The position numbers and the translations under genes are program-made. This document shows positions 10,624-37,221 of a stretch of 64,000 nucleotides of DNA, in pieces. Every line of letters starts with the position of its first letter. Position 1 is the first letter of the stretch. The notes below the pieces were generated by a model. The model made no database searches. It saw nothing but the letters and a program-made list of their open reading frames with translations, and had not been told where the DNA came from. Origin of the DNA: Pedobacter sp. BS3 (GTDB lineage: Bacteria > Bacteroidota > Bacteroidia > Sphingobacteriales > Sphingobacteriaceae); the NCBI RefSeq assembly GCF_008274585.1, contig NZ_VTRT01000001.1, positions 1,116,001-1,180,000 of the forward strand, in the 5' to 3' direction.

Positions 10624-10660
10624 AATCTTAACTATTTTGTATGAGAGTCTTTAAACGCAT

Positions 10661-10713: not shown

Positions 10714-10746
10714 GTATACAATCTCTTTCCCGATAAAGGTTAAGGA

Positions 10747-11328: not shown

Positions 11329-11349
11329 GTTTATCTATTTTATTTGTTA

Positions 11350-12294
11350 TTAATCTACTTTAAATAGCTGGCTGATGGAGCTATGCTCATTTACATTGGT
11401 AATGGCCTTAGCGAACAGCTCGGCTGTTGACAGCACTTTGATTTTGCTGCACTGTTGCTTTAACGGAATGGTATCGGTAACGATGAGCTCGGCCAGGGCT
11501 GATTTTTCGATGGTTTCGTACGCCTTGCCTGATAAAACAGCGTGAGTACATACGGCCCGTACACTGTTGGCTCCGTTTTCCATGATGAGGGCCGCCGCTT
11601 TAGACAAAGTACCTGCGGTATCGCAAATATCATCGATCAGCACAATATCCTGCCCGGTAACATCACCGATAATAGACATAGACTCTATCTCATTGGCCCG
11701 TTTACGACGCTTGTCGCAGATAACGATCTCGGCGTTAAAATATTTCGCAAAGGTACGTGCCCGGTATGAGCCGCCAATATCCGGCGATGCGATGGTTAAA
11801 TTTTTAAGTCCCAGGCTTTTGATGTACGGAACAAAAATGATCGCTGCATCCAGGTGATCTACCGGGATATCAAAAAATCCCTGGATTTGCGCAGCATGCA
11901 AGTCCATGGTCATGATGCGGTGAGCGCCTGCCGCCATGATCAGGTTTGCCATCAGCTTGGCGCCGATAGCTACCCGCGGCTTATCTTTACGATCCTGGCG
12001 TGCCATCCCAAAATAAGGTACCACAGCAGTGATGTAGTGCGCCGAAGCCCGTTTTGCCGCATCCGTCATCAGTAACAGCTCAATAATATTATCATTTGGC
12101 TGGCAGGTGGATTGGATCAGGAAAACATCGCATCCGCGTACAGATTCATTATAGATAGGCTGAAACTCGCCATCGCTGAAGCGGGACAAGGTAAGATCAC
12201 CTAACTCTTTTCCGTAAGCTTTTGCAATTTTTTCGGCCAATTCCCTGGAACCTGAGCCGGCAAATAATTTGATGGGATTAAACTGGAGTGGCAT
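11350..12294 (-). CDS. prs: Ribose-phosphate pyrophosphokinase (PRPP synthetase)
   Basis: The 314-residue length is typical. It begins with the conserved N-terminus FNPIKLFAGSGSRELAEKIA. It has the ATP-binding segment VVPYFGMARQDRKDKPR, the metal-binding MTMDLHAAQIQGFF, and SPDIGGSYRARTFAK in place of the more usual SPDxGGxxRAR. The PRPP-binding loop is VLIDDICDTAGTLSKAA. It makes PRPP from ribose-5-phosphate and ATP for nucleotide, His and Trp synthesis. It is the first gene of prs-rplY and starts 76 bases downstream of tRNA-Gln on the same strand, so it may be read from the tRNA promoter. Confidence 0.97.
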   Translation of the reverse strand: MPLQFNPIKLFAGSGSRELAEKIAKAYGKELGDLTLSRFSDGEFQPIYNESVRGCDVFLIQSTCQPNDNIIELLLMTDAAKRASAHYITAVVPYFGMARQDRKDKPRVAIGAKLMANLIMAAGAHRIMTMDLHAAQIQGFFDIPVDHLDAAIIFVPYIKSLGLKNLTIASPDIGGSYRARTFAKYFNAEIVICDKRRKRANEIESMSIIGDVTGQDIVLIDDICDTAGTLSKAAALIMENGANSVRAVCTHAVLSGKAYETIEKSALAELIVTDTIPLKQQCSKIKVLSTAELFAKAITNVNEHSSISQLFKVD

Positions 12295-17684: not shown

Positions 17685-19331
17685 TCAATTCGCATTACTA
17701 TAGTACTTAAAAAAATCCATCTTCATCTTATCCAAATGCCTGAGATTATAATTTAACCTGCGCAGAAAGCCATTATAATCCTTTTGTGCCAAAGATGTCC
17801 ATCCTACTTCAGCCAGAGCACAGGCCCTCGGAAATGTCATAAACTCAGCGTCTCGTTCATTGGTAACATATTCTGTCCATAAACAGGCCTGCGTACCCAG
17901 AATATACCGGGCTTCATCCGGTGTTAAACCGGCAGGTACCGGATTATAGGAATATACTTTTTCTAAAGGTAAAAAGCCCCCGTTAGAAAAGGGTTCCTGT
18001 TTCCTGTCTTTTGTCTGGTACAAATTCACATAGGTATAAGCGCTGGGTGTCATAATTACCTGATGGTTTTGCCGGGCGGCAGCTATTCCACCTTTCTCGC
18101 CATGCCACGACATCAGCGTAGCATTTGGAGCCAGACCGCCTTCCAGGATCTCATCCCAACCTATAATTTCACGCCCTTTTGAATTCAGGAACTTTTCAAG
18201 CCGGCCGATAAAATAGCTTTGCAGACCATGTTCATCCTTCAGATTCAATGTTCGAATCAGGTTCTGGCAATATGCCGATTCTTTCCACCGGTCTTTGGGT
18301 ACCTCATCGCCTCCGATATGGATGTATTTGCTTGGAAAGATATCCATCACTTCGGTGAGTACGTCCTCCAGGAATTTAAACGTTTCTTCTTTAGGGCAGA
18401 GTATTTCCTTATGCACACCCCAGCGTGTTGAAACTTCATACGTTGTATCGGCTTTGCATCCCAGATTTGGATAAGCTGCCAGTATAGCCTGTGAATGTCC
18501 GGGGACATCTATTTCAGGAATAATGGTCATGAAATGTTTGCCGGCATACGCCACCAGGTCTTCAAGCTGCTGCCGCGTGTAGTAACCGCCATGTGGTTTA
18601 CCATCAAATTTTTCGGGCACATCCAGCCGGTGGCCAACCAAGGTTTCTTTACGCCAGGCAGCCACTGTTTGCAAACGCGGATATTTTTCAATGGCTATCC
18701 GCCATCCCTGATCATCATTGAGATGCAGATGAAGCGTGTTGATCTTATAAAACGAAAGTGCATCGATATACTTTTTTATAAACTCCACCGAAAAAAAATG
18801 ACGGGCCACGTCTAATAACGCCCCGCGATATGCAAAACGGGGAGTATCCTCAATTTGAACGGCTGGAATGGTAAGATTTTTCACATGACCATCTTTTGTT
18901 TCAACATCCGGCGGCATGAGTTGCCGTAATGTCTGAACGGCCCAGAACGCTCCACGCGGGGTTTTATAGTTTATCATCACTATCTTACCCGTTACCGATA
19001 ACTGGTATCCCTCGTCGTTAACGATGGTATTATCTATTGAGAAACAGATACTGTTTTTATGATTTCCCTTATTCCCATAACCCAGCTTATAACCTGTGGA
19101 ATGTTCAATCAACTCAATAAGGAAACCGGCTGCTGTTTTTAATGCCGGATTATTGTTATCCAGGATAACTTTTGTCTTTGCAGTGATATCAAAATACCCT
19201 TTTCCCGGTACAAGTTTTACCGGCTTGGGAATAAGCGGGTAGCGCTCACTCTCCTGCGCATATAAGACCAGGCCCGAAGAAAACAGGTACGCAAAACAGA
19301 TAATTATCCGTAAAAAGGAGGTGTTGAACAT
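17685..19331 (-). CDS. Beta-N-acetylhexosaminidase, GH20
   Basis: This is a 548-residue secreted protein with signal peptide (IIICFAYLFSSGLVLYAQ). The N-terminal GH20b domain begins YPLIPKPVKLVPGKGYF. The catalytic TIM barrel begins at about residue 160 with RGALLDVARHF and NTLHLHLNDDQGWRI. The catalytic Asp-Glu pair lies in HIGGDEVPKDRW (D342, E343). YEVSTRWGVHKEILCP and WGTQACLWTEYV-like LGTQACLWTEYVT complete the pocket. GH20 enzymes remove terminal beta-GlcNAc or GalNAc by substrate-assisted catalysis using the 2-acetamido group. The start is one base after the preceding sialidase-fold gene, which indicates tight co-expression. Confidence 0.95.
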   Translation of the reverse strand: MFNTSFLRIIICFAYLFSSGLVLYAQESERYPLIPKPVKLVPGKGYFDITAKTKVILDNNNPALKTAAGFLIELIEHSTGYKLGYGNKGNHKNSICFSIDNTIVNDEGYQLSVTGKIVMINYKTPRGAFWAVQTLRQLMPPDVETKDGHVKNLTIPAVQIEDTPRFAYRGALLDVARHFFSVEFIKKYIDALSFYKINTLHLHLNDDQGWRIAIEKYPRLQTVAAWRKETLVGHRLDVPEKFDGKPHGGYYTRQQLEDLVAYAGKHFMTIIPEIDVPGHSQAILAAYPNLGCKADTTYEVSTRWGVHKEILCPKEETFKFLEDVLTEVMDIFPSKYIHIGGDEVPKDRWKESAYCQNLIRTLNLKDEHGLQSYFIGRLEKFLNSKGREIIGWDEILEGGLAPNATLMSWHGEKGGIAAARQNHQVIMTPSAYTYVNLYQTKDRKQEPFSNGGFLPLEKVYSYNPVPAGLTPDEARYILGTQACLWTEYVTNERDAEFMTFPRACALAEVGWTSLAQKDYNGFLRRLNYNLRHLDKMKMDFFKYYSNAN

Positions 19332-19332
19332 G

Positions 19333-21096
19333 TTATTTTCTTTTAATGCCTGCGTGAAAATTACTGATGGCCTCGGATGTGGTGAGGTAACGGTTGTACA
19401 ATCTGAGGTTCACAAGGGAGCCATGCAGCGCCGGAGCAAGTTTCCATATCGCATTATTACCTATATTTTGCATTTTATCACTGAATCTGCCCCAGCCATG
19501 TATACGGGCCGTTCCTCCGTCGCATAGTTTTCCATCTACAACAACGGTGATAATATCGGGCAGGCCATCTACAATAAAAACTACATGATGTAATTTGCCT
19601 GCAGCGAGGGTTCCGGGATCGGTATCCCAGCCTTCGGTGTGCTTTCCATCACTTAGTTCCAGCCTTAGCGTATGCTGTGGCGTGGTTATTAAACGGACGC
19701 CTTTACCCTGATTATCCCGGTTATCTAATACAATCTGCCCCGGTTCCATATCTTTTAACTCAAGCCAGAGATCAATTGTAAAACCTCCTTCTTGTAGATT
19801 GGGTAAGGTGCCGGCAGCAACAGTGCTGTTCGCTTTAATACCAGCCTGATTATAAATCAGCCCTTTCCGGATAAGTTTTCGTGCGGTTGGCTGATTCCAC
19901 AGACCTTTCAATAAATCAACATCTACCGCATGGACACGGGCTTTGGTTTTCTGGGTTTCGGTTATCCAATACTTGCCGTCTTGTTCTATCAAATCCGGAT
20001 AACTCATACCGGCATAAGTTAAATCATTGCTATACAGTATAATTTCGGGCTGCGACCAGTAGATTTTACCATTTTTCTCTATTCCCCCGCTAATCCAGGC
20101 AGGATTGCGCCCTTTAAAATCTTTACCTCCATGATTATGAAACCAAAACAGATACTTACCATTAGCGCATTTGAATACCCGTGGACAGGCTCTGGGAGTT
20201 TTGATTGTATTACCGAGGCTATATACAGCCCTTTGAGGCAGCGTCCAGGTCTTACCAGCATCCTGGCTATAGGCATCAGCAGGGAATCCCATTGCCGTAC
20301 GATACATACAATAAATATTGCCGTTGCTGAGTGTAACGGTATTGTGTTCTTCCTGGACTGAACCAAAAGCAGGATTACGTAATCCGGCATCTCCCTCAGG
20401 AAGCATTTGCCAGTGAATTTTACCAGGGTCTTTTTCAAAAGCAATATTATCCGACTTAAACAGCCATCCCTCACCGATATCCTGGGGAAATTTCCCTAAT
20501 TTCGTAAATGCGAAATAGATGCTGCTTTTTATTTTATCAGGTTTATCTATTCCCCAGAACATTTGCACTTTACCCTTAAAATCATTGTTAAAGTCCAGGC
20601 TGGTTTTGCGTACCGGCAAGCGGTAACGTTGCGACCATGTCTTTCCATTATCATCTGAGAATTTGTAGCAATACCATCCCAATAATCCCGCCTGCCGAAT
20701 GGGTTTGCCGTTTACTTTTGAAACATTATCTCCATTATAATTGTAAAAAACATATACCCGTCCATAGGACGTTAGGTACGGAATAGCCCAGGACGAAATT
20801 GGCCCAACATTTGGCTCTATAGCAACCACATCTGACCATGTTTTACCATGATCTACGCTTATTGCAGAAACAATATGTTGACCGGGCCGGCTTTCTGATT
20901 CTGCTCCTGTGGTAAACACACACAACCAGCGCCCGTCTTTTAGTACCACCACATAAGGCTGATCGATATATCCGTTATCATAGATAGAATAACCATTTTG
21001 TATGTTTCTTGGATCTGCAGATTGGGCTAGCACCAGCTTACCTGGCATGCTTAATATTACTATAATAGCCCCGATTATATAGAGAATCTTGTTCAT
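19333..21096 (-). CDS. Sialidase-fold (BNR/Asp-box) protein with C-terminal LamG domain
   Basis: This 587-residue protein has a signal peptide ending LVLAQ (about 25). Three Asp boxes (SxDxGxTW) are visible: SVDHGKTW at 80, SDDNGKTW at 147 and SQDAGKTW at 277. They indicate a six-bladed sialidase-type propeller up to about residue 400. Residues about 415-585 form a concanavalin/LamG jelly roll (GGFTIDLWLELKDMEPGQI, KLHHVVFIVDG, LVNLRLYNRYL). The FRIP/YRIP arginine motif of true GH33 sialidases was not found near the N-terminus. The substrate may therefore not be sialic acid, and exo-sialidase should be a fold-level name only. It lies in the PUL between the isomerase (24-base gap) and GH20 (1-base gap). 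Confidence 0.85.
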   Translation of the reverse strand: MNKILYIIGAIIVILSMPGKLVLAQSADPRNIQNGYSIYDNGYIDQPYVVVLKDGRWLCVFTTGAESESRPGQHIVSAISVDHGKTWSDVVAIEPNVGPISSWAIPYLTSYGRVYVFYNYNGDNVSKVNGKPIRQAGLLGWYCYKFSDDNGKTWSQRYRLPVRKTSLDFNNDFKGKVQMFWGIDKPDKIKSSIYFAFTKLGKFPQDIGEGWLFKSDNIAFEKDPGKIHWQMLPEGDAGLRNPAFGSVQEEHNTVTLSNGNIYCMYRTAMGFPADAYSQDAGKTWTLPQRAVYSLGNTIKTPRACPRVFKCANGKYLFWFHNHGGKDFKGRNPAWISGGIEKNGKIYWSQPEIILYSNDLTYAGMSYPDLIEQDGKYWITETQKTKARVHAVDVDLLKGLWNQPTARKLIRKGLIYNQAGIKANSTVAAGTLPNLQEGGFTIDLWLELKDMEPGQIVLDNRDNQGKGVRLITTPQHTLRLELSDGKHTEGWDTDPGTLAAGKLHHVVFIVDGLPDIITVVVDGKLCDGGTARIHGWGRFSDKMQNIGNNAIWKLAPALHGSLVNLRLYNRYLTTSEAISNFHAGIKRK

Positions 21097-21120: not shown

Positions 21121-21840
21121 TTATACCGATGAACACGCCACCGGATATTCATGACACAAATAATATTTCCGGGCTTCATCTTCCTCAATCTCCGGAAAGC
21201 GTTGTGCATAATCTACCAGGAATACGTTATCGCTCCAATCATCACAAACGCTGGATATTTCATTACTGATAGTATAACCAACACCATCTATTTTGTAACC
21301 GGTACCTTCCTCACCCCAAAACTGATGAATGGTGCGGGGCGGAATACATACGCTCATTCCCGGCTTAAGCCTGATGATACTTCCCGGTTCCATTTTGACG
21401 GTACAGCCATCTACCTGTATTGTAAATCGCTCTGTTGAATGCCGGCCTTCTTCATCGGCCTTGGTTACCTGCACCAGAATATTTCCACCAGCCCGGCAAA
21501 TCAAATCTTCACGCTTTGAGAGATGAAAATGGGCCGGTGCACGCTGAATTTCAGGATCGATCAATAGTTTCTCCGCATACTCTTTAGGATATCCCGTTTT
21601 TCCTTTACGCCCATTGCGCAGGGTAAACAGCACTCTTCCTATATTATAAAAATCTTTACTGTTAAAATCGGTAACGTCCCAGCCCAGCATACAATCACGT
21701 ATTTCATTATATTCTTCTCCTGCCCGTTCCCATTGTTCCGGGCTCCAATTGTAAAAATCAGGAAGTTTTACGTTAAAATGTTCAATTACCAGCTTAGCTG
21801 TATCAATACTGTTATTAATGATGGATCTTGTTAAGTGCAT
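21121..21840 (-). CDS. D-lyxose/D-mannose ketol-isomerase-like cupin
   Basis: This 239-residue cytoplasmic protein has no signal peptide. The metal-binding cupin residues are in APAHFHLSKREDL (HxH with a downstream Glu) and IPPRTIHQFWGEEG (third His). The overall pattern, with N-terminal SPEQWERAGEEYNEIRDCML and GWDVTDF, matches the D-lyxose ketol-isomerase family (formerly DUF1498), which interconverts D-lyxose/D-xylulose and D-mannose/D-fructose. It sits between the GH123-like and sialidase-fold genes with 22- and 24-base gaps. An intracellular aldose-ketose step is thus built into the locus; the true substrate may be a related sugar. Confidence 0.85.
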   Translation of the reverse strand: MHLTRSIINNSIDTAKLVIEHFNVKLPDFYNWSPEQWERAGEEYNEIRDCMLGWDVTDFNSKDFYNIGRVLFTLRNGRKGKTGYPKEYAEKLLIDPEIQRAPAHFHLSKREDLICRAGGNILVQVTKADEEGRHSTERFTIQVDGCTVKMEPGSIIRLKPGMSVCIPPRTIHQFWGEEGTGYKIDGVGYTISNEISSVCDDWSDNVFLVDYAQRFPEIEEDEARKYYLCHEYPVACSSV

Positions 21841-21862: not shown

Positions 21863-23704
21863 TCAATAGATAGTGTCTAAATAGTCAAGCATTTCCTTGC
21901 GTACAGCGTTAAACGTTGCAGGTGAATCTTCATAACCTTTTGGAATAGTTTCTGCCCGGGTGAGGTACGTAGAAAAAGGCAAGTCCTGCCCCTGTTCAAT
22001 TTCGGGAAAGACCAACTTTGCTATCAATTCCTGCGCTTTTGATGGATTAGCAGAACGAAGCTTTGCCAGCAAGGTCGCATCAACCATGCCTTCTCTGAAA
22101 CTTATAATCCGCATAGAAGGTATCAGGCCATTTGGAGATCGGTAATACAACCAGGCATCGCCAGGTGGGTGTCCCGGATTTTGCGATCCGTTAGGGAGCG
22201 GCCCCAATGATGTTTGATATTCATCCGGAACTCCCCGGTATTCATTCGCTGCCCAAAATAAATATCCTGAAGCATTATATTTCATACACAGCCATGGCCA
22301 TAACCGATTCTCAATCAGCGGCTGGTCCAGATGACGGTTAGGATAAGGCGGATAGGGACTTGAGGTATTATATAGCCATATACTCTTATGCTGGCTTAAT
22401 CGATCCTTCACCGCATCATTTTTTTGAAGAATAATACCTGGAAGATTAAAAACCTGTATACCAATCATATCGGTAAACAATTCCGGGTGTGAACTATTGG
22501 CATCTATGGACTTAACAGTCGGCATAGTTCGTTTCAGGATATTATTATAATGCTTATATTCATTCAGGGCCGCAGGTGAAGGCTCATCGTATATATGCTG
22601 TACATAACGGTTTAACATCCCCAGCGTTTGAAGATGATTATTTAAATCTTTAAGAAATGTTTGTTGAAAACATTCAAAGTTAATTTGTGTGCTGCCCAAA
22701 CTAATCGTATTTCCAGTTACACTATCTTTAATAGTAAGGCCTGAACCCATTAACTTCATATGCCGGCCGGCAAAATATTTAAAGCCCAGACTGTCAAACA
22801 TGTGTACCCAACGATCGAATCTGGAATAATCAAATGATAATGTCTTTGTCTGGCTATTCCATAATGTTTGTATGAGTGGATGTGCTGTACTAACAAGTGG
22901 CGTAAACATCGTATTCGCTCCATCTTCCCGCAGCATTTTCCCGGCCCGTTCCAGTAAATTCCAGTGTGCTTCGCTCCACCATTCCACCGAAGTACCGCTT
23001 TTGAGATTTTCAGGCAATTCAGAAAGCCAATGTGTGCTATCCAGGAAATAATCTTCTGGCAGTACGGTTTTGTGTACGGTAAACGAAACCGGGATATTTT
23101 TTTCTATTCCTAACGAGCCCGTGATTTTAATATTCCCCTGATAATGCCCAATGGGGCAATCTGTAGGTACCTGTATTTGTAGTAATACGCCTGCAATTTC
23201 TTCAGCAGGTACATTGATAGCAGTTGTTTGTGTGTCTGCTACTGCCTCCAGAACATCAAATGGTGCAAGCCGTACGAGATAAGGTACCCAGGAATCTGGA
23301 AACGCCCCCCCTGGGACATTAATCATTGAACCCTGTGTATTTCCTTCAACATGCACAGGCAACAGTCGTCTAAAAGCAAATCCACCCGTAAAGGATGTAC
23401 CTTCTTCATTTTTTACGCTGTCAAGCACTATTGTGAATTGCTGCGTGCTCGAACCCGTGATGGCCAATTGCATGCCTAAAGTATAGTTTCGCGGAATATT
23501 AACAGACTGATACCCTGGTTCTGTAACAGGAAAATTATCAGAATAAATACGGGCATACAGGTCTAATAGTTTACATTGAAAATCATTTCCCGTATTAGCT
23601 TCCTTCTTTATAGGGAAAGCTTTATATAATTCTTCCGCCTCTGCAGATATTGTATAAGCAGACAGCAAAGCCAATAAGGCTATCATTCTTCTTATGCCAT
23701 TCAT
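21863..23704 (-). CDS. GH123/DUF4091-like glycoside hydrolase
   Basis: This is a 613-residue secreted protein with a signal peptide ending about residue 23 (SAEAEE region). An N-terminal beta-sandwich (about 30-210, with VLLQIQVPTDCPIGHYQGNI) precedes a TIM-barrel-like catalytic domain. The adjacent Asp-Glu in YVQHIYDEPSPAALNEY (D373, E374) matches the catalytic pair of GH123 beta-N-acetylgalactosaminidases, where the Asp orients the acetamido group and the Glu is the acid/base. Aromatic pocket blocks follow (LWPWLCMKYNASGYLFWAAN). DUF4091 proteins are a related, mostly uncharacterised group, so GalNAc specificity is inference. Gaps to its neighbours are 22 bases on each side. Confidence 0.8.
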   Translation of the reverse strand: MNGIRRMIALLALLSAYTISAEAEELYKAFPIKKEANTGNDFQCKLLDLYARIYSDNFPVTEPGYQSVNIPRNYTLGMQLAITGSSTQQFTIVLDSVKNEEGTSFTGGFAFRRLLPVHVEGNTQGSMINVPGGAFPDSWVPYLVRLAPFDVLEAVADTQTTAINVPAEEIAGVLLQIQVPTDCPIGHYQGNIKITGSLGIEKNIPVSFTVHKTVLPEDYFLDSTHWLSELPENLKSGTSVEWWSEAHWNLLERAGKMLREDGANTMFTPLVSTAHPLIQTLWNSQTKTLSFDYSRFDRWVHMFDSLGFKYFAGRHMKLMGSGLTIKDSVTGNTISLGSTQINFECFQQTFLKDLNNHLQTLGMLNRYVQHIYDEPSPAALNEYKHYNNILKRTMPTVKSIDANSSHPELFTDMIGIQVFNLPGIILQKNDAVKDRLSQHKSIWLYNTSSPYPPYPNRHLDQPLIENRLWPWLCMKYNASGYLFWAANEYRGVPDEYQTSLGPLPNGSQNPGHPPGDAWLYYRSPNGLIPSMRIISFREGMVDATLLAKLRSANPSKAQELIAKLVFPEIEQGQDLPFSTYLTRAETIPKGYEDSPATFNAVRKEMLDYLDTIY

Positions 23705-23726: not shown

Positions 23727-25502
23727 TTACTTACCTAAAATTTTTCGTAATACGGGCTCTATCACCTCACAATAGCGAAACATGCCTAAATCAGTAGGAT
23801 GAGACCCATCAACAGTTGCTTCATTATCATAGCCAATCAGCCCTTCTCCCGGTATATATGACACAGCCTTCACATTTTCTTTCAGGAGTTGTTCATAGGC
23901 TTTTTTCAATCCTGCCCGGCGATTATTTGGCACTGCCGCTCCCGTAAAATTTGCATAGGCATACGTTCGGTCTTCGACAAGTATTATCGGTGTTTCGGGG
24001 CGTTTAGCCCGAAGTTTTCTTACAAGAAAAAGTGTTCGGTCTACAATTTCATCAGAACTCATCTTTCCCATATTGGGCAGACAGTCTATAATATAAGCTG
24101 ATGCAGAGATTTCTGCCAGTATATCAGCAAATTCCGGATCCATAGTACCATTGCCTGAAAATCCCAGATTGATAGTTGGCATATCCAGCCTTCTACCCAA
24201 CATAGAAGGATATGCCATGCCGGGTCTTGAGGCGCTACATCCCTGCAATATTGAAGTGCCATAAAAAACCAGGGGCTTTCCGCGATCATGAGGCTTTTCT
24301 ATTTTAACATCTGGCGAAAAACCCAACTGTATATCAGTTAAAGCACTATATAATGGCAAATAGAGGATATATTCATATTTACCTGTTTCGGGAATTCCGT
24401 TTTTTAAACTTGCCTCATTATCAACATCACTCCGTGTCGGTTTCCCAACACCAGCCCACTGCCATTTCCCGTTTAATTTAACATACAAATCGAGCCCATT
24501 AACACCAAGAGGAGTCATGTGGGGAAGAAACGGATTACTCTTCAATTTCCATTTCGCAGTAATAAATTTTGTATTGGAAGCGGTAAAATGCAGAGCAATA
24601 CCCGCCGAATGTGTGCTTAATGCCCATACCGGATTTCTCACCACAGATTTAAAACGGGCTGGCAATCTGTTATATGGTGTTTCTGTATCTTTCCATCCTT
24701 TACCTTCAATATTTAATTCAGTAGCGTTTATCCATTTTACAGTTAGATCTACAGGCTTTCCTGTTCTCATTTCTGCATCCAGGTTTTCTATACGTGTTTC
24801 TGTGGATGATGTCGTTGATGCCTGCGGAACACCTGTAAATTTAAAATTCTGCAGTTTTCCTATCCATAATAAAGATTTACTACTGTTACCTGCCTGACAG
24901 CCTATTTCAAACAGTCTTTTTGAGTTTTCTCCTAAATCACCTATCCCAGCAACAGAATATTTGTGTTTCCGATCTATTACAAGTGTAATGGTTCCTTTTC
25001 CACCATCGGGGCTCCATTCCAAAGAAAAGAAATGAATTTTTCCATCGTTAAAGCTACGGCCCGAAGACATTAATGAAACCCCTTTCTTATCGTTATTAAC
25101 GGCCATTACTCTTAATGTCCCATCTTTTAACATTAAAAAATCCCAGCCTGTATAACCTGATAGAGCAGAGCGAGTGCCGGCTATAACCGCTATATTTCCG
25201 TCCTCGTTTGTTGTCTGGAAGTTTCCTTCAAACACCCAAGGAAGGTTACGCATATCCAACGATGGCAAATACGAGCTGCTAAAACCCGACCATGTTCCTT
25301 TTTCAACAGATGCCTGCTTATTTAGATTATAAGTTCCTGTGTTATCCTTTATGAATGTAGATTTATCATTTACGTCCAAAGGCCAATGTGCCATAAGTTT
25401 ACTGCCCGCCTGATAAGAAGCTAACGCATTGAATGTTAAGATCCATCCTAAAAGCAGCAACAATAGCTTAGTATAGTGTCTCTTATTTATTATTTTTCTC
25501 AT
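23727..25502 (-). CDS. SGNH/GDSL-type esterase with N-terminal LamG-like module
   Basis: This 591-residue protein has a signal peptide (LLLLLLGWILTFNALAS). Residues about 33-225 are a LamG-like jelly roll (KLMAHWPLD, GTWSGFSSSYLPSLDMRN, TGWDFLMLKDGTLRV). Residues about 250-400 match an SGNH_hydro_N-type beta domain with the GLDLYVKL mark. The catalytic domain has block I FYGTSILQGCS (nucleophile S417), block II GFSGNGTM, and block V DGSHPTDLG (D565, H568). The enzyme probably removes acetyl or other acyl groups from the target glycan at the cell surface or in the periplasm. Its LamG module closely resembles the one inserted in the neighbouring SusD. Confidence 0.88.
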   Translation of the reverse strand: MRKIINKRHYTKLLLLLLGWILTFNALASYQAGSKLMAHWPLDVNDKSTFIKDNTGTYNLNKQASVEKGTWSGFSSSYLPSLDMRNLPWVFEGNFQTTNEDGNIAVIAGTRSALSGYTGWDFLMLKDGTLRVMAVNNDKKGVSLMSSGRSFNDGKIHFFSLEWSPDGGKGTITLVIDRKHKYSVAGIGDLGENSKRLFEIGCQAGNSSKSLLWIGKLQNFKFTGVPQASTTSSTETRIENLDAEMRTGKPVDLTVKWINATELNIEGKGWKDTETPYNRLPARFKSVVRNPVWALSTHSAGIALHFTASNTKFITAKWKLKSNPFLPHMTPLGVNGLDLYVKLNGKWQWAGVGKPTRSDVDNEASLKNGIPETGKYEYILYLPLYSALTDIQLGFSPDVKIEKPHDRGKPLVFYGTSILQGCSASRPGMAYPSMLGRRLDMPTINLGFSGNGTMDPEFADILAEISASAYIIDCLPNMGKMSSDEIVDRTLFLVRKLRAKRPETPIILVEDRTYAYANFTGAAVPNNRRAGLKKAYEQLLKENVKAVSYIPGEGLIGYDNEATVDGSHPTDLGMFRYCEVIEPVLRKILGK

Positions 25503-25548
25503 CTTTATATCCTTTGTAGTATACGTTGCCTTTACATATTAGCATCGA

Positions 25549-27711
25549 TTACCATCCATAGTTCTGGTCCAGTAATGGGTTCAATCCTCTTTCTTGTTCA
25601 GGTATTGGCCAAAGAACATCACGGGCGGTGGCATTTTTAAAGTATTCAACTCCCGCATTGGTAGGGGCTTCTATGGCAAACTCGTCTACTCCTATTTTCA
25701 TTCTTTCAACAAAATTCCCCCACCTTCTTAAATCCGATTTTCGTAAACCTTCATAACACAGTTCCCTCGCTCTTTCGGCCATTATATATTCCTGTAAAGA
25801 TTCTTTGGTAAACCCGGACAATTCAATGCCGGATGCTCCGGCCGGTTCTGGCGGATAATAAAACTTAAAATCACTCAGGTTTCCATTCCAAAGGTATCTT
25901 TTCAGTAGATTGGGGCCAGAAGCATATATATCAGACCCAATCGAAAAGCGACGATTTGTGTTAGCGCCTAAATCACCAACACCATCAGCCGAATACTCAT
26001 TTGTTCCGTCGATGATCAAGGTAATTTTTCCTAGTGCACCGTCATCGGGATTCCATTTGACCTCGAAGTGATGCCGCTCTCCATCCCTAAGATTAAGTGA
26101 GGTAGGAGTGGAAACACTAGCTGTTGCCTGGCCCGACCCCTTTGATACCAAAAAGCGAACGGAACCGGTCGCCAGCATAACAAGATCCCAACCGGAATAA
26201 GAAGAATAAGTTGACCTGGTTCCTGCGATGTTCTGTAACGCCGTATTAGTTGTTTTAAAATATCCTTCGCATACCCAAGCCCTATCCCTTATGTCCAATA
26301 CTGACGGATAGGCACTGCTGTATCCTGACCAAGTGCCGTTGGCGAAAGTTACCTGTTCAGTAAGATTGTATTCTCCTTCATCGTCTTGCAATACGCCACC
26401 CGACCCTGCTTCTGTATCCAGTTTCCACGAGGCGAAAATCGTATTCTCCGTTAATGGAATCGGAGACATTCCAAACGCCCTTCTTCTAATTTGATTTAAT
26501 GCGCTATAGGCTTCTGCCGTAGGTCCGTTAAGATAGTTATCGGCCTCTGCAAACATCAACAGCACATCAGAATATCTTAGCAATACAAAATTGAGACATG
26601 AGTTAGGATATTCCCTTGCTCCGGCAGCCTCATATTTTCTATACCATTTGCCCGCATATCTAAATAATCTTGAGGTAGCAGGTCTTGCCACTTCAACGCC
26701 ATTCGATATAGTGTACGGTGCTATACACCAATCTCTTCTCAGGTCTCCTGTTTCATATGAGTCGTATAGCCACCTTGTGCCTTGTACCCATCCGTAAGAC
26801 ACGCCGCTTTCTGTAGTTGACCCATTATACAAAACCCCAAAGTTTGTTCCTATCCTGCCTGCCTGTTCATAAGGAGGTTCACGATTTCCCCAAAATTCAA
26901 CTTCCCATATACTTTCTTTAATATCGTATATATCCTGTGCATAATTGATAAAAACCTGTTTATAACTGGGATTAAGAGCATGTAATTTAGAATCTATTAC
27001 TTTTTTAGCCCAGGTTCTAGCATCTTCATATTTAGAGACATCATTGATAGGATTTCCTGCCATATACAGGCACGTTCTTGCAATAATGCCCTGAACAGCA
27101 GATTTGCTTACCCTTCCCCCAAAACCAATTTCATTTATAGGTAATACAAGTTTTTCTGCTTCGATCATTTCTTTGAGAATAAACTCGTAAACCTCTTTTG
27201 CAGGAGTTTGTGGAATGTTTGGTTCACCTGGTGAAGTAGTACTCTTCAGTTTTAAAGGAATATTCCCGAAATTATTCACCAGAATAAGATAAAAGTAAGC
27301 CCTTAGAAACTGCGCTTCACCCTTTATTACTTTTCTCTTTTCCTCATCCATTTCTGGTTTATTAATATTCTCCAAAAGCAGGTTTGCATTATTAATACCT
27401 TTATAAAATTCAGCCCATAACTTAGTTATGTAAGGATCGCTCGTCACTACATTATATACCTGTACTCCACCGGTTCTTCTGAACCATCCTTCATCTGCTT
27501 GTAAACCCATATATCCATGCATCGCATTTCCATACGTGTTAAAACTAATAAGAGTAGCATACACCGCATTTAGTGCATAATTTAACTGTTCTTCTGTTTC
27601 ATAATAAGTTACAGGAGATAGAAAATCTTTGGGTTTGGTATCCAGAAACTTCTCACACGAACCAAGAAGTAACATCACGATACTTAGCGCCGATATAATT
27701 ATCCGTTTCAT
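25549..27711 (-). CDS. SusD/RagB-family lipoprotein with inserted LamG-like module
   Basis: This 720-residue protein is much longer than the usual 500-600. The lipobox LLLGSC puts the acylated cysteine at residue 19. SusD features are NYALNAVYATL, KGEAQFLRAYFYLILVNNFG (TPR helix) and LRYSDVLLMFAEADNYLNGP. Normally SusD would go on directly to the C-terminal MAERARELCYEGLRKSDLRRWG, which is present. Here about residues 424-620 intervene as a LamG-like module (GTWSGYSSAYPSVLDIRDRA, AGTRSTYSSYSGWDLVML, KITLIIDGTNEYSADG). SusD caps the SusC pore and captures glycan; the extra jelly roll may add a binding site. The gap to SusC is 18 bases. Confidence 0.95.
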   Translation of the reverse strand: MKRIIISALSIVMLLLGSCEKFLDTKPKDFLSPVTYYETEEQLNYALNAVYATLISFNTYGNAMHGYMGLQADEGWFRRTGGVQVYNVVTSDPYITKLWAEFYKGINNANLLLENINKPEMDEEKRKVIKGEAQFLRAYFYLILVNNFGNIPLKLKSTTSPGEPNIPQTPAKEVYEFILKEMIEAEKLVLPINEIGFGGRVSKSAVQGIIARTCLYMAGNPINDVSKYEDARTWAKKVIDSKLHALNPSYKQVFINYAQDIYDIKESIWEVEFWGNREPPYEQAGRIGTNFGVLYNGSTTESGVSYGWVQGTRWLYDSYETGDLRRDWCIAPYTISNGVEVARPATSRLFRYAGKWYRKYEAAGAREYPNSCLNFVLLRYSDVLLMFAEADNYLNGPTAEAYSALNQIRRRAFGMSPIPLTENTIFASWKLDTEAGSGGVLQDDEGEYNLTEQVTFANGTWSGYSSAYPSVLDIRDRAWVCEGYFKTTNTALQNIAGTRSTYSSYSGWDLVMLATGSVRFLVSKGSGQATASVSTPTSLNLRDGERHHFEVKWNPDDGALGKITLIIDGTNEYSADGVGDLGANTNRRFSIGSDIYASGPNLLKRYLWNGNLSDFKFYYPPEPAGASGIELSGFTKESLQEYIMAERARELCYEGLRKSDLRRWGNFVERMKIGVDEFAIEAPTNAGVEYFKNATARDVLWPIPEQERGLNPLLDQNYGW

Positions 27712-27729: not shown

Positions 27730-30700
27730 TTATAAAATGGCTTTTAAACTAAATACAATTGTTTTCGCCCTGGGATATGCAGAAAAGTCAAATCCCGGAG
27801 TCAGAATGGAATTTTTCACTGCCACTTCAGGATCCATACCTGTATAATTAGTCCAGGTAAATAAGTTCTGAGCAGAACATCCTAAAGAAAGCTTGCTTAC
27901 TTTTACCCGTTTTAAATATTTGGAAGGTATATCATAATCCAGTGATACTGTTTTTAGCCGTAAATAAGACCCATCTTCTAATGTCATGGACGAATACACT
28001 CCATTTGGTCCTGCTCCTGAATCTGCACCGCCTAAACCTGCTCTAAACATATTGGTATTTTGATTCTCAGGAGTCCAACGGTTATTATAAGATGCAAACT
28101 GATTCATCAGAGGCCTTATATTATAACCTCCTTCAAAATATATTCTATTTGCATTCATAATATCGTTACCATACGACCATTGGAAAAAGATATTGAGCTT
28201 AAAATTTTTGTAAGCAAAATTGTTGTTGAAACCTCCGGTATGAATAGGGAACGCTCTTCCTATAACCGTTCTGTCTTCACTATTAACTATACCGTCATTA
28301 TTCAAATCTCGGTATTTTATATCTCCCGGTTTTATAGAAGCCCGCGGATCTCCATTGGTAGGTACTTCATCTTTAAGTTCATATACTCCGGGCGAAGTTT
28401 CATTGAAATCGCTGTATTGATATACACCATCCCATATAACTCCCCAGAATGACGCTGCAGGCCCTCCTACTTCAGTTCTATATAATGGCGTTCCACTATA
28501 GTTACTGTCCCATGACATGTAGTTGAGCATAAAGGGTTCATTATCATTCAGGGCAAGTACCTTATTCCTGTTAAAACTTATATTGAAACTGCTCTCCCAA
28601 CTAAACGTTCTTCCTTTTACATTTTTAGTGTTCAATGAAATTTCCAATCCTTCATTTTTAAGAGAGCCGACATTTTTAAAGGCTGTAGAAAAGCCCGACA
28701 CTAATGGCAAATTAGCTCGTAACAGTAAATCGCGTACCGTTCTTCTATATATATCTGCCGTCAGGTTAATACGATTTTTAAACATAGAAAGGTCATAACC
28801 AATATTTACCTGTTCAGAGGTTTCCCATTTAAGAGATTCGTTTCCCAAAGTATTGGCTATGGCTCCTCTAGACGGGGTTTGGTTATTAAACGAGTAATAA
28901 TAAGTGTACGGCAGTTCAATGGAGGATAAATAGTCATAATCTCCAACCCTGTTATTACCCGATAGCCCATAACCAATTCTTAATTTTGCATCAGTTATAA
29001 ATTTAACCTGCTTCATAAAATCCTCATCACTCATTCTCCATGCAATTGCTCCGGAAGGGAAATATCCCCATCTGTTACCTGATGGGAATCTGGAAGAACC
29101 ATCAGCCCGATAAGAAGCTGTCAGCAAATATTTAGATTTGAATTTATAGTCAACTCTTCCGAAAAAAGACATTTGCTTTGAATCACTTATAATACTCCTA
29201 TTGGTTACAGGAACTCCCTGATCAAGGCCACTCAGCCCCAACTCCTCATTTGGCACATTTTGGGAACCAAAAGCATAATAACTTGTATTGATACCTTCCA
29301 GGCTGAAGCCTCCCTTAACATCCAGATGATGGTTACCAAAGGCCTTTGCATAAGAGAGAATATTTTCATTAGAGAAAAGCTTATATTGATAGAAATTTGC
29401 TCCACCTTGTACTCCAGCGTACACTACTCCGGGGCGCATAATCCCTCTTCTGGTTTTAGAATTATAGAAATAATTATATTCTCTTAGCCTTTTGTCTGCC
29501 CGGCCATTTACGGTCAGTAATAAGTTTCCGGTAATTTTATATTTGAGAGACAGATTTCCGGTAATTATCGAATTTTTTGTATGCAGATTCTCATTTTCTG
29601 CCATAATTACGGGATTTATCCTGTAGTCACTCGCGGCATTAAGTGTGGGATCTGTCAACTGTGTTTCCAAATCATATAAAGATTCATTAGGGCCTGTAAC
29701 AGGCCTGTATCCCCATATACTTGAAAAGAAAGAGCTGGTTGCTGTACCACTTAATGCATCATCTGCGGCTACGAGCCCTGATGCATGGTTATCCGTATAA
29801 TATAAGCTTAAACCAGTTGATAGTTTTTTATTAATGGTTTGTTCTAATGCAATACGACCATTAAATCTATTGAATGCTGTATTGATGATGGTACCATTCT
29901 GATTATAATAGGAACCTGACACAAGATATTTGGTGCCACCTGTTCCACCACTTACAGAAAGGTTATGTATTTGAACTGTGCCCAGACGAAATACTTTATC
30001 CTGCCAGTCTATAGATTCTGCATTTCTGTATACTTCAGGATCAGGTGTCTCTCCTGCCTGAAGATCAGGATAATAAACTGCCTTCGCATCAGCAGGGAAA
30101 CGCTCTAATTGTAATTTGACAAACTCATATCCATCCATCATCTCCATTCTATTTGTCACCTTATTAAATCCCTGACTACCATTATAAGTAATCCTTGCCT
30201 TCCCTACTTTCCCTTTCTTGGTCTCTATCAGTATTACTCCGTTAGACCCGCGAGCTCCATAAATTGCAGTTGATGAAGCGTCTTTCAAAACGCTTATTGA
30301 TTCCACATTGTCCGGACTTATAGTGGTAGGGTCAAAATTTTCCATCGGAAAACCATCTACTACATACAGCGGATCTGTACTCTGCGTCAACGACCCTACC
30401 CCTCTTATGGTAATATTAGGAGCAGAACCTGGCTGCCCATCATTTGAAGCCACCTGCACACCAGCAACTCTACCCGCCAAGGCATCGGCAAAGGTAGCAA
30501 CAGGAGCTTTTTCCATATCTTCCACACTCACCTGGCCAACAGCGCCTGTTAAATCTCCCTTTCTAACTGTGCCGTATCCTATCACTACTACTTCGTTAAG
30601 TCTTTTGTCTGCGACTTCCAACACTATATTAAGCTGCGCTTGCGAACCTATGGATACTATCCTTGTTGTGTATCCAATATAACTGAACTCTAATTGTCCA

Positions 30701-30909
30701 CTACCCTGAGGGACTCTGATAGCGTATTTCCCATCGCCATTTGTCTGGGTTTTTACAGATGTACCTTTCACCGTTACGTTTACTCCCACTAAAGGTTCAT
30801 TCCCATCTCTTGAGCTTACTAAACCTGTAATTGTTCTATCCTGTGCGTATGACAAAACTGTCAATAAGGAAAAGTACAATAGCAGGCACCATCGAATTGA
30901 TTTAGCCAT
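27730..30909 (-). CDS. SusC/RagA-family TonB-linked outer-membrane receptor
   Basis: This 1059-residue receptor has a signal peptide ending about residue 22 (LLTVLSYAQ). A CarboxypepD_reg-like domain follows (TITGLVSSRDGNEPLVGVNV, then YTTRIVSIGS). Next are the SusC linker LNEVVVIGYGTVRKGDLTGA and the plug (GVQVASNDGQPGSAPNITIR, DPLYVVDGFPM, SVLKDASSTAIYGARGSNGV). A 22-strand barrel completes the protein and ends KTIVFSLKAIL. With SusD it forms the bedbin-type TonB-dependent importer for oligosaccharides. The upstream gene ends 43 bases before the start, so the NHL gene is in the same operon. Confidence 0.97.
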   Translation of the reverse strand: MAKSIRWCLLLYFSLLTVLSYAQDRTITGLVSSRDGNEPLVGVNVTVKGTSVKTQTNGDGKYAIRVPQGSGQLEFSYIGYTTRIVSIGSQAQLNIVLEVADKRLNEVVVIGYGTVRKGDLTGAVGQVSVEDMEKAPVATFADALAGRVAGVQVASNDGQPGSAPNITIRGVGSLTQSTDPLYVVDGFPMENFDPTTISPDNVESISVLKDASSTAIYGARGSNGVILIETKKGKVGKARITYNGSQGFNKVTNRMEMMDGYEFVKLQLERFPADAKAVYYPDLQAGETPDPEVYRNAESIDWQDKVFRLGTVQIHNLSVSGGTGGTKYLVSGSYYNQNGTIINTAFNRFNGRIALEQTINKKLSTGLSLYYTDNHASGLVAADDALSGTATSSFFSSIWGYRPVTGPNESLYDLETQLTDPTLNAASDYRINPVIMAENENLHTKNSIITGNLSLKYKITGNLLLTVNGRADKRLREYNYFYNSKTRRGIMRPGVVYAGVQGGANFYQYKLFSNENILSYAKAFGNHHLDVKGGFSLEGINTSYYAFGSQNVPNEELGLSGLDQGVPVTNRSIISDSKQMSFFGRVDYKFKSKYLLTASYRADGSSRFPSGNRWGYFPSGAIAWRMSDEDFMKQVKFITDAKLRIGYGLSGNNRVGDYDYLSSIELPYTYYYSFNNQTPSRGAIANTLGNESLKWETSEQVNIGYDLSMFKNRINLTADIYRRTVRDLLLRANLPLVSGFSTAFKNVGSLKNEGLEISLNTKNVKGRTFSWESSFNISFNRNKVLALNDNEPFMLNYMSWDSNYSGTPLYRTEVGGPAASFWGVIWDGVYQYSDFNETSPGVYELKDEVPTNGDPRASIKPGDIKYRDLNNDGIVNSEDRTVIGRAFPIHTGGFNNNFAYKNFKLNIFFQWSYGNDIMNANRIYFEGGYNIRPLMNQFASYNNRWTPENQNTNMFRAGLGGADSGAGPNGVYSSMTLEDGSYLRLKTVSLDYDIPSKYLKRVKVSKLSLGCSAQNLFTWTNYTGMDPEVAVKNSILTPGFDFSAYPRAKTIVFSLKAIL

Positions 30910-30952: not shown

Positions 30953-32791
30953 TTATTCTATCACTATTTTTTTAGTGCTTATACCGTCTACTTCTAACAG
31001 ATAAATTCCTGCAGGTAATTTTTTAGAAATATTTACAGATATCTCATTATCTATCACTTCCAGCTCTTTCTGAAATACTGCTTTACCATTCAAGTCAATT
31101 ATTTTCACCAGTTTTAGTTTATCAATCGTATTTATTCCCGATATTGTAAACTTCTCTGCACTTACAGGATTAGGAAAAACTTTCCAGCTGTTAAAATCAG
31201 TTAAACCCACATTAACAGACTTCAATCCCAATTCCTTGTATACACCATCTTTATCTGTCTGCACAAGTTTGTAATAATTGATACCCGGGTTTGGATCTGA
31301 ATCTGTATAAATATAGTTACCTCCCTCATTTCCTTTAGAATCTATTCTGGTATATATTTTAAAGTCCTTTCCATCTGTACTCCTTAGTATATTGAAATGG
31401 CTGTTATTAGTCTCCGACGAAGTTTTCCATATTAATTCTACACTTCCGTTAGTTAACAAACTAACCGAGTAATCAACCAAAGACACCGGTAAAGCCGCTT
31501 CTACTGTAATATTGATTGTTGCGGTACTACTGCCTGATGTATTATATGCGGTAACGGTATAATCTGTGGCTGGAGAAATCTCTGTTGGTGTTCCGCTGAT
31601 TATACCTGTTGTAGCATCAAAACTTAAACCTGCTGGTAGCTGTGGGCTTATTGTATATCCTGTTGTGCTTATTTTTCTAATCCTATCATTAGTATAATCA
31701 GCAACATATAGGTTTCCTGAGGCATCTATCGCCACATCTGCTGGATTTTTAAAACTTGCCTCTGTGCCTATACCATCTGCTAAAGCTCCTGTCCCGCTTC
31801 CGGCTAAAGTAGTTACTATACCAGAAGGACTCATTTTTCGTATTTTATGATTATTATAATCTGCTATGTACAGATTTCCCGCATTATCAAAAGTTAATCC
31901 AAAAGGTCCATTAAAACTTGCATCTGTATCAATAGGACCATCATTAGAACCACCACAAGGACAGATATTTAATGTTTCCACCTGAGCTGTTGTGGCATTA
32001 ATTTTTCGTATCCTGTTATTACCATTATCACTTACATAAATATCTCCTGTACTGCTCACAGCAATACCGACAGGATTATTAAATCTTGCATCAGTTCCTA
32101 TGCCATCCAAAGCACCAGATTGATTTGAACCAACAGGCGCACCAGCAAAAGTTACCACATCTCCAGTTGGTGAAACTTTACGTATCTTATGCCTTGCTCT
32201 GTCTGCTACATACATATTGCCCGAGGCATCAAATGCCATCCCAAAAGGTAAGTAGAATTCAGCGGAAACGGCATCACCATCTGCATCCCTATTACCTGCT
32301 GCACTACCAGCCCCGGAAAAATGAGTTTGCACTCCTGCCGAAGTAATTTTACGTATAATATTACCTTGGTCTGATGCATATATATTTCCCGATGCATCCA
32401 CCGCCACTCCTAAAGGATTATTAAATTTTCCATCTGCCAATACACCAGAAGAACTGGTAACACCTGCAAGAGTACTTACAACACCTTCTGGAGTTATTTT
32501 TGTTATTCTATGGTAAGCCCTATCAGCAACATAGACATTCCCAGAGGCATCTACTGCTATACCTTGGGGTCTGGAAACACCTCCTGCTGCCCCAGCAACA
32601 GTAATGGTACTTACCTGTCCATAAATTGTAGCAGGTACAGCTCCTCCTGTATTAACAGGGTTTAAAGGAGAAATTGCCGTGTTTTGTGTAAACACATTTG
32701 ATACATTGTAGCTAATAACCGGAGCCTGAGCCAATGTGATGCTTGTACCAGAAAACATCAAAAAAACGCTTAATAGTAGTTTTCTTTTCAT
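30953..32791 (-). CDS. Secreted NHL six-bladed propeller protein with T9SS sorting domain
   Basis: This 612-residue protein has a signal peptide ending SITLAQ (21). Six NHL repeats of the form GxAxDxSGNxYVADxxxxRIxKI make one propeller (about 60-375); examples are GIAVDASGNVYVADRAYHRI and DVAIDASGNLYVADYTNDRI. A putative-Ig domain follows (GLSFDATTGIISGTPTE, TDYTVTAYNTSGSS). Next come a fibronectin-like segment (about 432-530) and a type A T9SS sorting domain (WKVFPNPVSAEKF, ending STKKIVIE). It should be exported by type IX secretion and held at the surface. It is a paralogue of the last block of the larger neighbour. With SusC 43 bases downstream, it leads the SusCD genes. Its function is unknown. 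Confidence 0.9.
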   Translation of the reverse strand: MKRKLLLSVFLMFSGTSITLAQAPVISYNVSNVFTQNTAISPLNPVNTGGAVPATIYGQVSTITVAGAAGGVSRPQGIAVDASGNVYVADRAYHRITKITPEGVVSTLAGVTSSSGVLADGKFNNPLGVAVDASGNIYASDQGNIIRKITSAGVQTHFSGAGSAAGNRDADGDAVSAEFYLPFGMAFDASGNMYVADRARHKIRKVSPTGDVVTFAGAPVGSNQSGALDGIGTDARFNNPVGIAVSSTGDIYVSDNGNNRIRKINATTAQVETLNICPCGGSNDGPIDTDASFNGPFGLTFDNAGNLYIADYNNHKIRKMSPSGIVTTLAGSGTGALADGIGTEASFKNPADVAIDASGNLYVADYTNDRIRKISTTGYTISPQLPAGLSFDATTGIISGTPTEISPATDYTVTAYNTSGSSTATINITVEAALPVSLVDYSVSLLTNGSVELIWKTSSETNNSHFNILRSTDGKDFKIYTRIDSKGNEGGNYIYTDSDPNPGINYYKLVQTDKDGVYKELGLKSVNVGLTDFNSWKVFPNPVSAEKFTISGINTIDKLKLVKIIDLNGKAVFQKELEVIDNEISVNISKKLPAGIYLLEVDGISTKKIVIE

Positions 32792-32877
32792 ATTACTTTA
32801 ATTACGAGTTAACAAATTGATTGACAGAAACTTGCTTCAAAAGCATTATCCTTTACTCAAAGATGCATCGAAATTTA

Positions 32878-32923
32878 CTGCTCAACTCATACGAAATTGC
32901 CCAATATCAATGCTATTCTATCT
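32878..32923 (-). promoter_or_regulatory. Duplicated upstream element, copy 2 (before the 612-residue NHL gene)
   Basis: This segment shares the core CATACGAAATTGCCCAA and flanking CTGCT...TCAAC and CTATTCTATCT-like parts with 37174-37221. It lies 87-132 bases upstream of the NHL start on the minus strand; the other copy lies 68-115 bases upstream of the paralogue's start. Similar position before two paralogous genes suggests a shared control site, perhaps for the AraC regulator encoded at 37317; the regulator link is inference. Confidence 0.5.
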
Positions 32924-33020
32924 TTATATAAATTACAAAAACAGATTTGAAACAGAATAGTATTTACCATGAAGTAAGAGAGCTTGAAATTTGAGCCTGT
33001 CTCCAAAAGCAATACTATCA

Positions 33021-36000
33021 TTAACGTATGAATATCTTTTTTACCCCCAATTCCTGTACCTGCACCATATACATGCCTGGCATTAATCGGGATGGAAGAT
33101 ATATATTAGCTTGCCCGTCATTTACGGTCAAGCCTTTGCTGAACACTATTCGTCCGGTCATATCATAAATTTTCACAATCTTTTCCTTTGAGGCAGCAAT
33201 TGGCACAACTATTCTAAACCATCTGTTATCAACAGGATTGGGGTAAATGCTCCAATCTGCTTTTATTAAATTTTCAGGGTTAATTTCTACTCTCATATTT
33301 TCATTACCAGTAGGCCGAGAAGCTAATAGCAAGTCATCTGATACTTCGATACTAATGGTATCAGAGCTGCTACCTGCACTATTATATGCTGTAACAACAT
33401 AATCTGTAGCTGGCGATACTACGGTAGGTGTACCACTAATAACACCTGTTTTGTTATCAAATGTTAACCCAGTTGGCAGTGACGGATTGATAGTGTAACC
33501 AGTGGTTACAATTTTCCTAATCCTATCATTAAGATAATCTGCTACATACAGGTTTCCATCTGCATCCGCTGCCACATCCGCCGGATTTTTAAAACTCGCA
33601 GCAGTGCCTATTCCATCTGTTAACGCTCCGGTCCCACTACCGGCAAGTGTACTTACAGTTCCAGTCGGTGCTATCTTACGAATTTTATTATTAGTATAAT
33701 CAGCTATATAGAGGTTACCAGCACCATCAAATGCCATTCCGAAAGGGCCATTAAAGCTTGCAGTCGCTACCGAGCCATCAGCCGATCCGGCACTCCCTGT
33801 CCCTGCAAATGTTGTTACTTCACCTGTCGAGGTAATTTTCCGGATTTTATTGTTATTAAAATCCCCAATATAAAAATCCCCTGCCTGACTGATTGCGATT
33901 CCTACCGGGTTATTAAACTTGGCACTTGTTCCTGTGCCATCAATAGACCCTGCCGTACTACCAGCGAAAGTACTTACGGTACCAGATACGGTTACTTTAC
34001 GAATTCTATGATTTGCACGATCCGCAACATACAGGTTTCCTGTTGAGTCCAGGGATAATCCAAATGGGTAATAGAAACTAGCTGATGTGCCTGCACCGTC
34101 AGATGATCCTACTGAACCGTCTCCGGCAAGTGTACTTACCTGCCCCGCCGGACTAATTTTCCGGATACGCTCATTCTGAATATCAGAAACATAAACATTA
34201 CCAGCACTATCTATAGCAATATCAGACGGATTATTAAACATGGCTGTGGCACTTGAACCATCTGCAAACCCTGCGGTTCCGCTGCCTGCAAGAGTACTTA
34301 TAGTTTCTTGCGGAGTAATTTTCCTAATCCTGTGATATGCCCGATCAGCGATGTATACATTACCAGATTTATCAATTGCAATACCTTGCGGCCTTGAAAC
34401 ATCTCCGCTGATAGTTATTGTACTTGTTTCACCATAAGTGGTAGCTGGAACAGGGCCACCAGTGTTTACAGGAGCTATAGGCGTAATGATTTGATTTTTA
34501 ATATAATTCTGCACATCCGGATAAGCTATGTGTGGCGGGGTATTTATAATTTCTATATTTAGAGTATCCGAACTATTACCAGCCTGATTATAAGCCGTAA
34601 TAATATAATTTGTAGCGGGCGATACGGCCGAAGGCGTTCCGCTAATTACTCCTGTTGCGGCATTGAGAGACAACCCTCCCGGTAATTCAGGATTAATAGT
34701 GTAACCTGTGATAGTAATTTTTCGAATTTTATTGTTACCGTCCGCTACATATAAGTTTCCTATGTTATCTGTTATTACATCAACCGGATACTTAAAACTA
34801 GCGGCACTGCCTATACCTTCTGCCAAGCCGATTGTGCCACTTCCCGCAAGAGTACTTACTATACCAGAAGGAGTGATTTTTCGGATTTTTTGATTATTAT
34901 AATCTGCCACGTACACATTTCCCAGATTATCCACCGTTACACCAAACGGATTAGTGAAACTGGCAGCTCCGCCAATACCATCAGCAGAACCAGGGCTGGT
35001 TTGACCTGCTAAAGTACTGACTACGCCTGCTGCAGTAATTTTCCGAATCCGGTTATTCGTGTAGTCACCAACATATATGTTGCCAGCACTGTCAACCGCA
35101 ACTCCTACCGGATTGTTAAATTTTGCAGTTAGCGGATTACTTGAATCTGCAAACCCCGCAGTGCTCCCTGCTATTGTAGTCACTACTCCCACCGGAGTAA
35201 TTTTCCGTATCTTATAGTTATAACGATCGGCGACATATACATCTCCTGACCGGTCGACAGCAAGACCAAAAGGATAATTAAATTTTGCGGCACTACCCGT
35301 ACCATCAGCAAAACCTGCAGTTCCAACAGTACCGGCCAGCGTGCTGACAACCCCTGCCGGGGTGATTTTTCTTATTGTATGATTCCGCATGTCAGAAATA
35401 TACAAGGTACCGGAACTATCAATTACAATTCCGGCCGGTTCATTAAAACTGGCACCCGTTCCTGTACCATCTGCCGAACCAGCTACACCGCTACCTGCAA
35501 ATGTGCTAACTACACCTGCAGGGGTGATTTTTCGTATTCTATGATTATAACGATCGGCCACATAAATATTTCCTGTATTGTCTGCAACCATTCCATAAGG
35601 TGTCTTGAATTTTGCTGTTGTACCTACACCATCCGCAAAGCCATAACTTCCACTGCCTGCAAATGTGCTGGTTTCACCATAGGCAACTACAGATGGCACA
35701 CTACCACCATTATTCACGGGAATAAGTAATGGAATTTCTTTATTTTTCACATAAATCTGCCCTGCCCCATAATTAATATCAGGAGATAAGTTATCTATTA
35801 CTTGAATACTTACAGTATCAGAACTATTCCCTGTTCTGTTATATGCCGTAATGATATAATCTGTTATGGGTGCTACTGCTGTTGGCGTACCACTGATTAT
35901 ACCTGCGGTAGCATCAAAATTTAACCCGGCTGGTAATGACGGCCTAATGGTAAAACCAACTGTTGATATTTTTCGGATAACGTTTCCGGTAAATTCGGCT

Positions 36001-37106: not shown

Positions 37107-37173
37107 ATTATGCGTTAGTTTGTAAATGGTTAGTATTAAATAATCGAATAGCAATTCAAAATTGCCCCGAATT

Positions 37174-37221
37174 CTGCTACTCAACCCATACGAAATTGCC
37201 CAACACTGATGCTTTTCTATC
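37174..37221 (-). promoter_or_regulatory. Duplicated upstream element, copy 1 (before the large NHL gene)
   Basis: This is the counterpart of 32878-32923, sharing the core CATACGAAATTGCCCAA. It lies in the 210-base divergent spacer between the NHL gene and the AraC regulator, so it could serve both directions. No convincing TTTG/TAnnTTTG promoter pair was found next to it. Confidence 0.5.

Follow-up and report, generated by a model that had tools for sequence, protein, structure and literature searches.

The window, i.e. the whole 64-kb stretch of DNA analysed here, carries a run of genes on the minus strand, in the order susC, susD, SGNH esterase, GH123-like hydrolase, D-lyxose isomerase-like protein, BNR/LamG protein, GH20 hydrolase and MFS transporter. 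The features used below are the following, with positions counted in the window and the basis of each assignment in brackets.

27733..30909, minus strand: susC, TonB-dependent transporter paired with the module-bearing SusD (NCBIfam OMP_RagA_SusC, E 1e-272)
25552..27711, minus strand: susD, lipoprotein of 720 aa with the lipobox LLLGSC, SusD-like_3 and SusD_RagB domains, interrupted by the module (Pfam, AlphaFold2)
25843..26445, minus strand: LamG-like module within SusD, residues 423-623 (alignments with the esterase copy and with uninserted SusD homologues, AlphaFold2 secondary structure, GC)
23730..25502, minus strand: esterase of 591 aa, with signal peptide, LamG-like module, GxDLY and GDSL/SGNH domains (Pfam, PDB)
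24825..25406, minus strand: LamG-like module of the esterase, residues 33-226 (alignment; not in homologous esterases)
21866..23704, minus strand: GH123-like glycoside hydrolase of the same gene run (Pfam GH123_cat, E 4.7e-41)
19336..21096, minus strand: BNR-repeat (sialidase-like) protein with an unrelated C-terminal LamG (BNR_2, E 2e-13; Laminin_G_3, E 1.5e-15, at residues 423-575)
17688..19331, minus strand: GH20 beta-hexosaminidase of the same gene run (Pfam Glyco_hydro_20, E 5e-117)

The D-lyxose/D-mannose isomerase-like protein, a cupin encoded at 21124-21840, is in unexpected company amid genes of amino-sugar type (GH20, GH123, BNR). Directly upstream of susC, at 30956-37184, lie the genes of two large NHL-repeat proteins, one of 612 aa with a Por secretion tail, the other of 1387 aa with repeated blocks. 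For the BNR protein, no PDB relative was found at E 0.001, and no relative at E 1e-40 in 150 related genomes; among these genomes, one distant relative at most was found for the GH123 and BNR genes. The GC content is 38-40% over the part comprising susC, susD and the esterase gene, compared to ∼45% in the first 20 kb of the window.

As a rule, SusD proteins are regarded as lids of a single domain, PDB 3ihv and BT1762 of the levan transporter being examples of the SusD/RagB family. The SusD of the window has the complete sequence and fold of this family: both Pfam domains were detected (SusD-like_3, E 7.8e-28; SusD_RagB, E 2.1e-35, residues 266-720 for a model of 297 positions), the fold is helical, the lipobox is present and the gene adjoins susC. 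In an AlphaFold2 model made with 29 homologues from GTDB loci, pLDDT is mostly above 90 in the core on both sides of the insert, and below 50 in the insert itself (residues 423-630), which occupies a loop between the helices 399-412 and 636-650. The closest PDB structure to this model is the SusD homologue 3ihv (E 3e-28, TM 0.83 on the target). We conclude that this SusD is most probably an intact lid lipoprotein, its core being complete on both sides of the insert and its role as a lid on SusC being predicted. It differs from the family by a LamG-like module of 201 residues placed before the ERARELCYEG helix, which was present in no other SusD examined.

The esterase belongs with the GxDLY plus Lipase_GDSL_3 SGNH esterases: both domains of the catalytic part are complete (Pfam, E 2e-40 and 5.8e-59 respectively), the GTSI serine block and the DGSHP block of the catalytic motifs are present, and the closest solved chain is 4lhs (E 1.1e-70, over residues 255-589). 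Its homologues, in contrast, are devoid of the N-terminal LamG-like module. The esterase has a plain signal peptide without a lipobox, so that its module and that of SusD may lie on opposite sides of the outer membrane.

Two related modules in neighbouring genes

The preliminary description had proposed that one LamG-like module occurs in SusD (residues ∼424-620) and in the esterase (∼33-225). This is confirmed, with limits refined to 423-623 and 33-226: 84 of 191 aligned residues are identical (44%; BLASTP, 147 bits, E 1e-49), and both copies are in intact reading frames. The three motif pairs on which the proposal was based were all recovered in the alignment, and each module resembles the other far more than it does any further LamG found. 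In particular, the third LamG of the locus, at the C-terminus of the BNR protein (residues 408-587), is not close to either of them (E 0.2-0.6).

Assignment to a fold is less direct. With the Pfam model Laminin_G_3, the SusD and esterase modules score 25.0 and 16.3 bits, for a cut-off of 27.6, and with Laminin_G_2, 21.7 and 20.9 bits, for a cut-off of 22.9; as these scores are below the curated cut-offs, we name the modules LamG-like. A two-sequence AlphaFold2 model of the isolated module gave a beta sandwich of low confidence (pTM 0.62, mean pLDDT 54), which matches laminin LG, CBM40 and galectins at E 1e-6 to 1e-4, with laminin LG5 (1qu0, E 2.5e-6) and CBM40 (6er4, TM ∼0.62) among the matches, as well as neurexin and agrin. 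CBM40 binds sialic acid; here it is a match to the fold of a low-confidence model, with no match to the Pfam sequence profile reported. The weak Pfam match, the tentatively predicted beta sandwich and the LG5/CBM40 fold matches would relate the pair to the Laminin_G_3/ConA-like lectin superfamily (LamG, CBM40, galectin-type), whereas the scores under the cut-offs and the lack of detected relatives set the pair apart as a sequence group of its own. The residues identical between the two copies are evenly spread rather than clustered into a putative binding site (permutation p 0.16-0.64).

Further copies were searched for at several scales. In the organism's own genome (4.8 Mb), the SusD module had no match at E ≤ 1 apart from itself and its counterpart in the esterase. 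Searches of 200 related genomes, 400 of the order and 395 across the phylum, and of plasmids, gave no copy. GTDB genomes and viral contigs, each scanned with two short peptide patterns, yielded none either, these patterns admitting only residues present in the two copies, so that divergent relatives may escape them. The next best matches in 2.1 Mb of related loci were at E 0.14 or worse, too distant to be placed in a tree with the two modules. In esterase homologues, whether of relatives or from across the phylum, the match to the window esterase starts only at residue 240 or later, and a profile search found the module in none of 37 other esterase homologues. Four homologues with long reading frames (L043, L054, L055 and L169) were considered as module carriers and ruled out, as what they carry is an N-terminus resembling an alpha/beta hydrolase, an additional GDSL domain or a tail of repeats. 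Both host families are therefore otherwise without the module, and the only two copies found are in neighbouring genes. For a genome of ∼4,000 genes, as estimated from its 4.8 Mb, the chance that two copies are adjacent is ∼1 in 2,000.

A recurrent insertion site in SusD

The insertion of a module into SusD had been described as unusual. This holds for LamG as the cargo, but not for insertion as such, as 22 other SusD cores are filled in the same loop; likewise, SusD proteins of unrelated loci commonly carry an insert at this site, yet not this module. Among SusD relatives at 45-56% identity, the VRRRA and ERxREL motifs are separated by 16-38 residues in most cases and by 104-171 in the others. 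The long loops consist of Gly-rich repeats (GSGYTSAPTVTISGGGG...GATATA), which in ∼9 inserts are joined by a segment resembling CBM5/12, with Pfam E-values of 1e-4 to 7e-3 that fall short of the curated cut-off. A quick tree of 68 SusD cores, built with the insert removed, contains 45 empty loops, 22 of the repeat type and a single LamG, that of the window. The state of the loop, empty or filled, changes 15 times on this tree, 10 of these changes being forced by well-supported branches. The window SusD groups among empty and repeat-plus-CBM relatives, the split between the two repeat classes being approximate (L026 is probably mis-sorted). The repeat-type inserts, found mostly in Sphingobacteriales and Chitinophagales, thus share with the LamG module the identical loop and the SusD subfamily; they differ from it in module type and in that most of their loci keep a DUF5017 gene.

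Two metagenome-assembled susD genes (L092:9977-11828 and L079:3087-4841) are broken into two reading frames where the insert begins or close by, through assembly errors or real frameshifts. The insert of the window is unlikely to be an assembly error, as it keeps the reading frame, occupies a recurrent site and departs from the esterase copy along its whole length.

In one of the 22 regions with an insert-bearing, unbroken SusD, L067, the repeats of the insert are also found in a nearby secreted alginate-lyase-like protein of 1072 residues with a Por secretion tail (L067:151-3366 and 9418-11409; 36% identity in 115 aa; E 7e-11 without composition correction, and 3e-14 in a profile search). This is possibly a second case of module sharing within a locus, and we take it as a lead only, as Gly-rich repeats are common in secreted proteins.

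In this subfamily, the regular third gene after susC and susD encodes a DUF5017 lipoprotein of ∼300 aa (e.g. L080:11576-12508). Counting the window, and only the loci with a gene directly after susD, it is found in 35 of 46 loci: 16 of the 21 with an insert and 19 of the 25 without. In the window, its usual place is filled by the LamG-esterase gene, and no DUF5017 protein is encoded in the 64 kb. A search of the open-access literature for SusD together with DUF5017 found no paper; the position of the gene suggests that DUF5017 proteins bind glycan. The missing gene would fit with a LamG insert that supplies surface glycan binding, although replacement is not a general rule, since inserted relatives mostly keep DUF5017.

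Probable origin and proposed role of the shared module

To explain the pair, the preliminary description had invoked copying within the locus. An event common to both genes is still the simplest account, as the modules are mutually closest and their hosts are otherwise without them, but it would not be recent. Identity between the copies is 53, 68 and 34% at codon positions 1, 2 and 3. With third positions only 34% identical, silent sites are saturated, so that a recent duplication is rejected and any copying is old, with either gene as a possible donor. Copying between the neighbouring genes thus appears plausible from the sequences, as an old event. The composition of the copies differs: the SusD module has a GC of 0.459 and a GC3 of 0.41, compared to 0.392 and 0.32 in the rest of susD, and the esterase module 0.39 and 0.33. 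The modest excess of the SusD copy hints at a different history, without proving it. It is also possible that the whole locus was acquired from an unsampled lineage, given that its GH123 and BNR genes have so few relatives. A version without any copying from gene to gene supposes that related LamG modules were gained independently from an unsampled donor pool, the locus being acquired later. The age of the pair, the near absence of close relatives of the GH123 and BNR genes and the GC drop in the susCD-esterase part are all consistent with it, but no third member of the family was found anywhere searched, and the sole two copies are adjacent; we consider this version rather doubtful.

Regarding function, the proposal that best explains the whole is a lid with a built-in binder and a matching module on the esterase; we put it at an even chance. 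The module in the SusD loop would be of LamG type and probably carbohydrate-binding, and the loop would be a permissive slot for add-on modules in this subfamily. The adjacent esterase would have gained its N-terminal copy from SusD, or have been the source, in an old event in the locus or in an ancestral lineage. Most likely, it turns the lid itself into a glycan-binding protein of the cell surface, standing in for the absent DUF5017-type lipoprotein, while the esterase copy would keep glycans of this class close to the active site for deacylation. Direct support comes from the identity of the modules, their confinement to two genes in everything searched, the recurrent slot, the intact SusD core and the lack of a DUF5017 gene; what we infer is that the modules bind glycan, that they have a ligand in common, that the insert takes over from the lipoprotein and that one module was copied. 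Several observations go against the proposal: most inserted loci keep DUF5017, and 6 of the 25 uninserted loci are also without it; the conserved residues are unclustered; the divergence of the copies is too great for direct copying to be proved; the esterase is possibly in another compartment than SusD; and the module models are of low confidence.

Other roles for the insert can be weighed against these same data. LamG domains often bind proteins, and the fold matches include laminin, neurexin and agrin, so the insert could be a structural or protein-interaction module, the two LamG copies packing together or on SusC and tethering the esterase to SusCD. Such an assembly would resemble the known utilisomes, in which surface enzymes and binding proteins gather on SusCD and enzymes dock to SusC (PMC7618045). 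However, the esterase has a plain signal peptide without a lipobox and its surface display is putative; we hold such a tether to be very unlikely. Alternatively, the insert may be a neutral passenger that the loop tolerates, without a function common to all inserts, as the frequent gains and losses on the tree, the unrelated kinds of insert and the DUF5017 gene kept in most inserted loci would suggest. Yet repeat-type inserts stay in frame and recognisable across large divergence, and the LamG copies are 44% identical although their silent sites are saturated, which means that the protein sequence of the SusD module has been under selection; we hold the passenger reading to be distinctly unlikely. 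A broader version of the built-in-binder lid, which we regard as tentative and somewhat unlikely, is that a single SusD loop is a general cargo slot for different glycan-binding modules, whose swapping would make the transporter lid itself the surface binder. Through exchange of this cargo with enzymes encoded in the locus, capture and processing would be directed at one and the same glycan.

For the built-in-binder lid, the nearest functional parallels are the surface glycan-binding proteins (SusE/F, SGBP-B, DUF1735 with LamG), in which add-on modules serve the surface glycan capture proposed here; unlike them, the module of the window is built into the lid rather than carried by a separate lipoprotein. 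An enzyme in which a LamG module serves as CBM was described in a 2019 paper, as cited in PMC11216935. In a Maribacter laminarinase, an insert resembles a surface glycan-binding protein (PMC11345257), which by analogy may serve as a precedent for enzymes and binding proteins with a common module. Text searches of the open-access literature found no description of a SusD with a LamG insert.

If the slot does take up different modules, the specificity of the transporter could evolve by domain insertion. Were this true, it would help substrate prediction for loci without a separate surface-binding protein, and the loop would be a natural engineering site for SusCD uptake systems.
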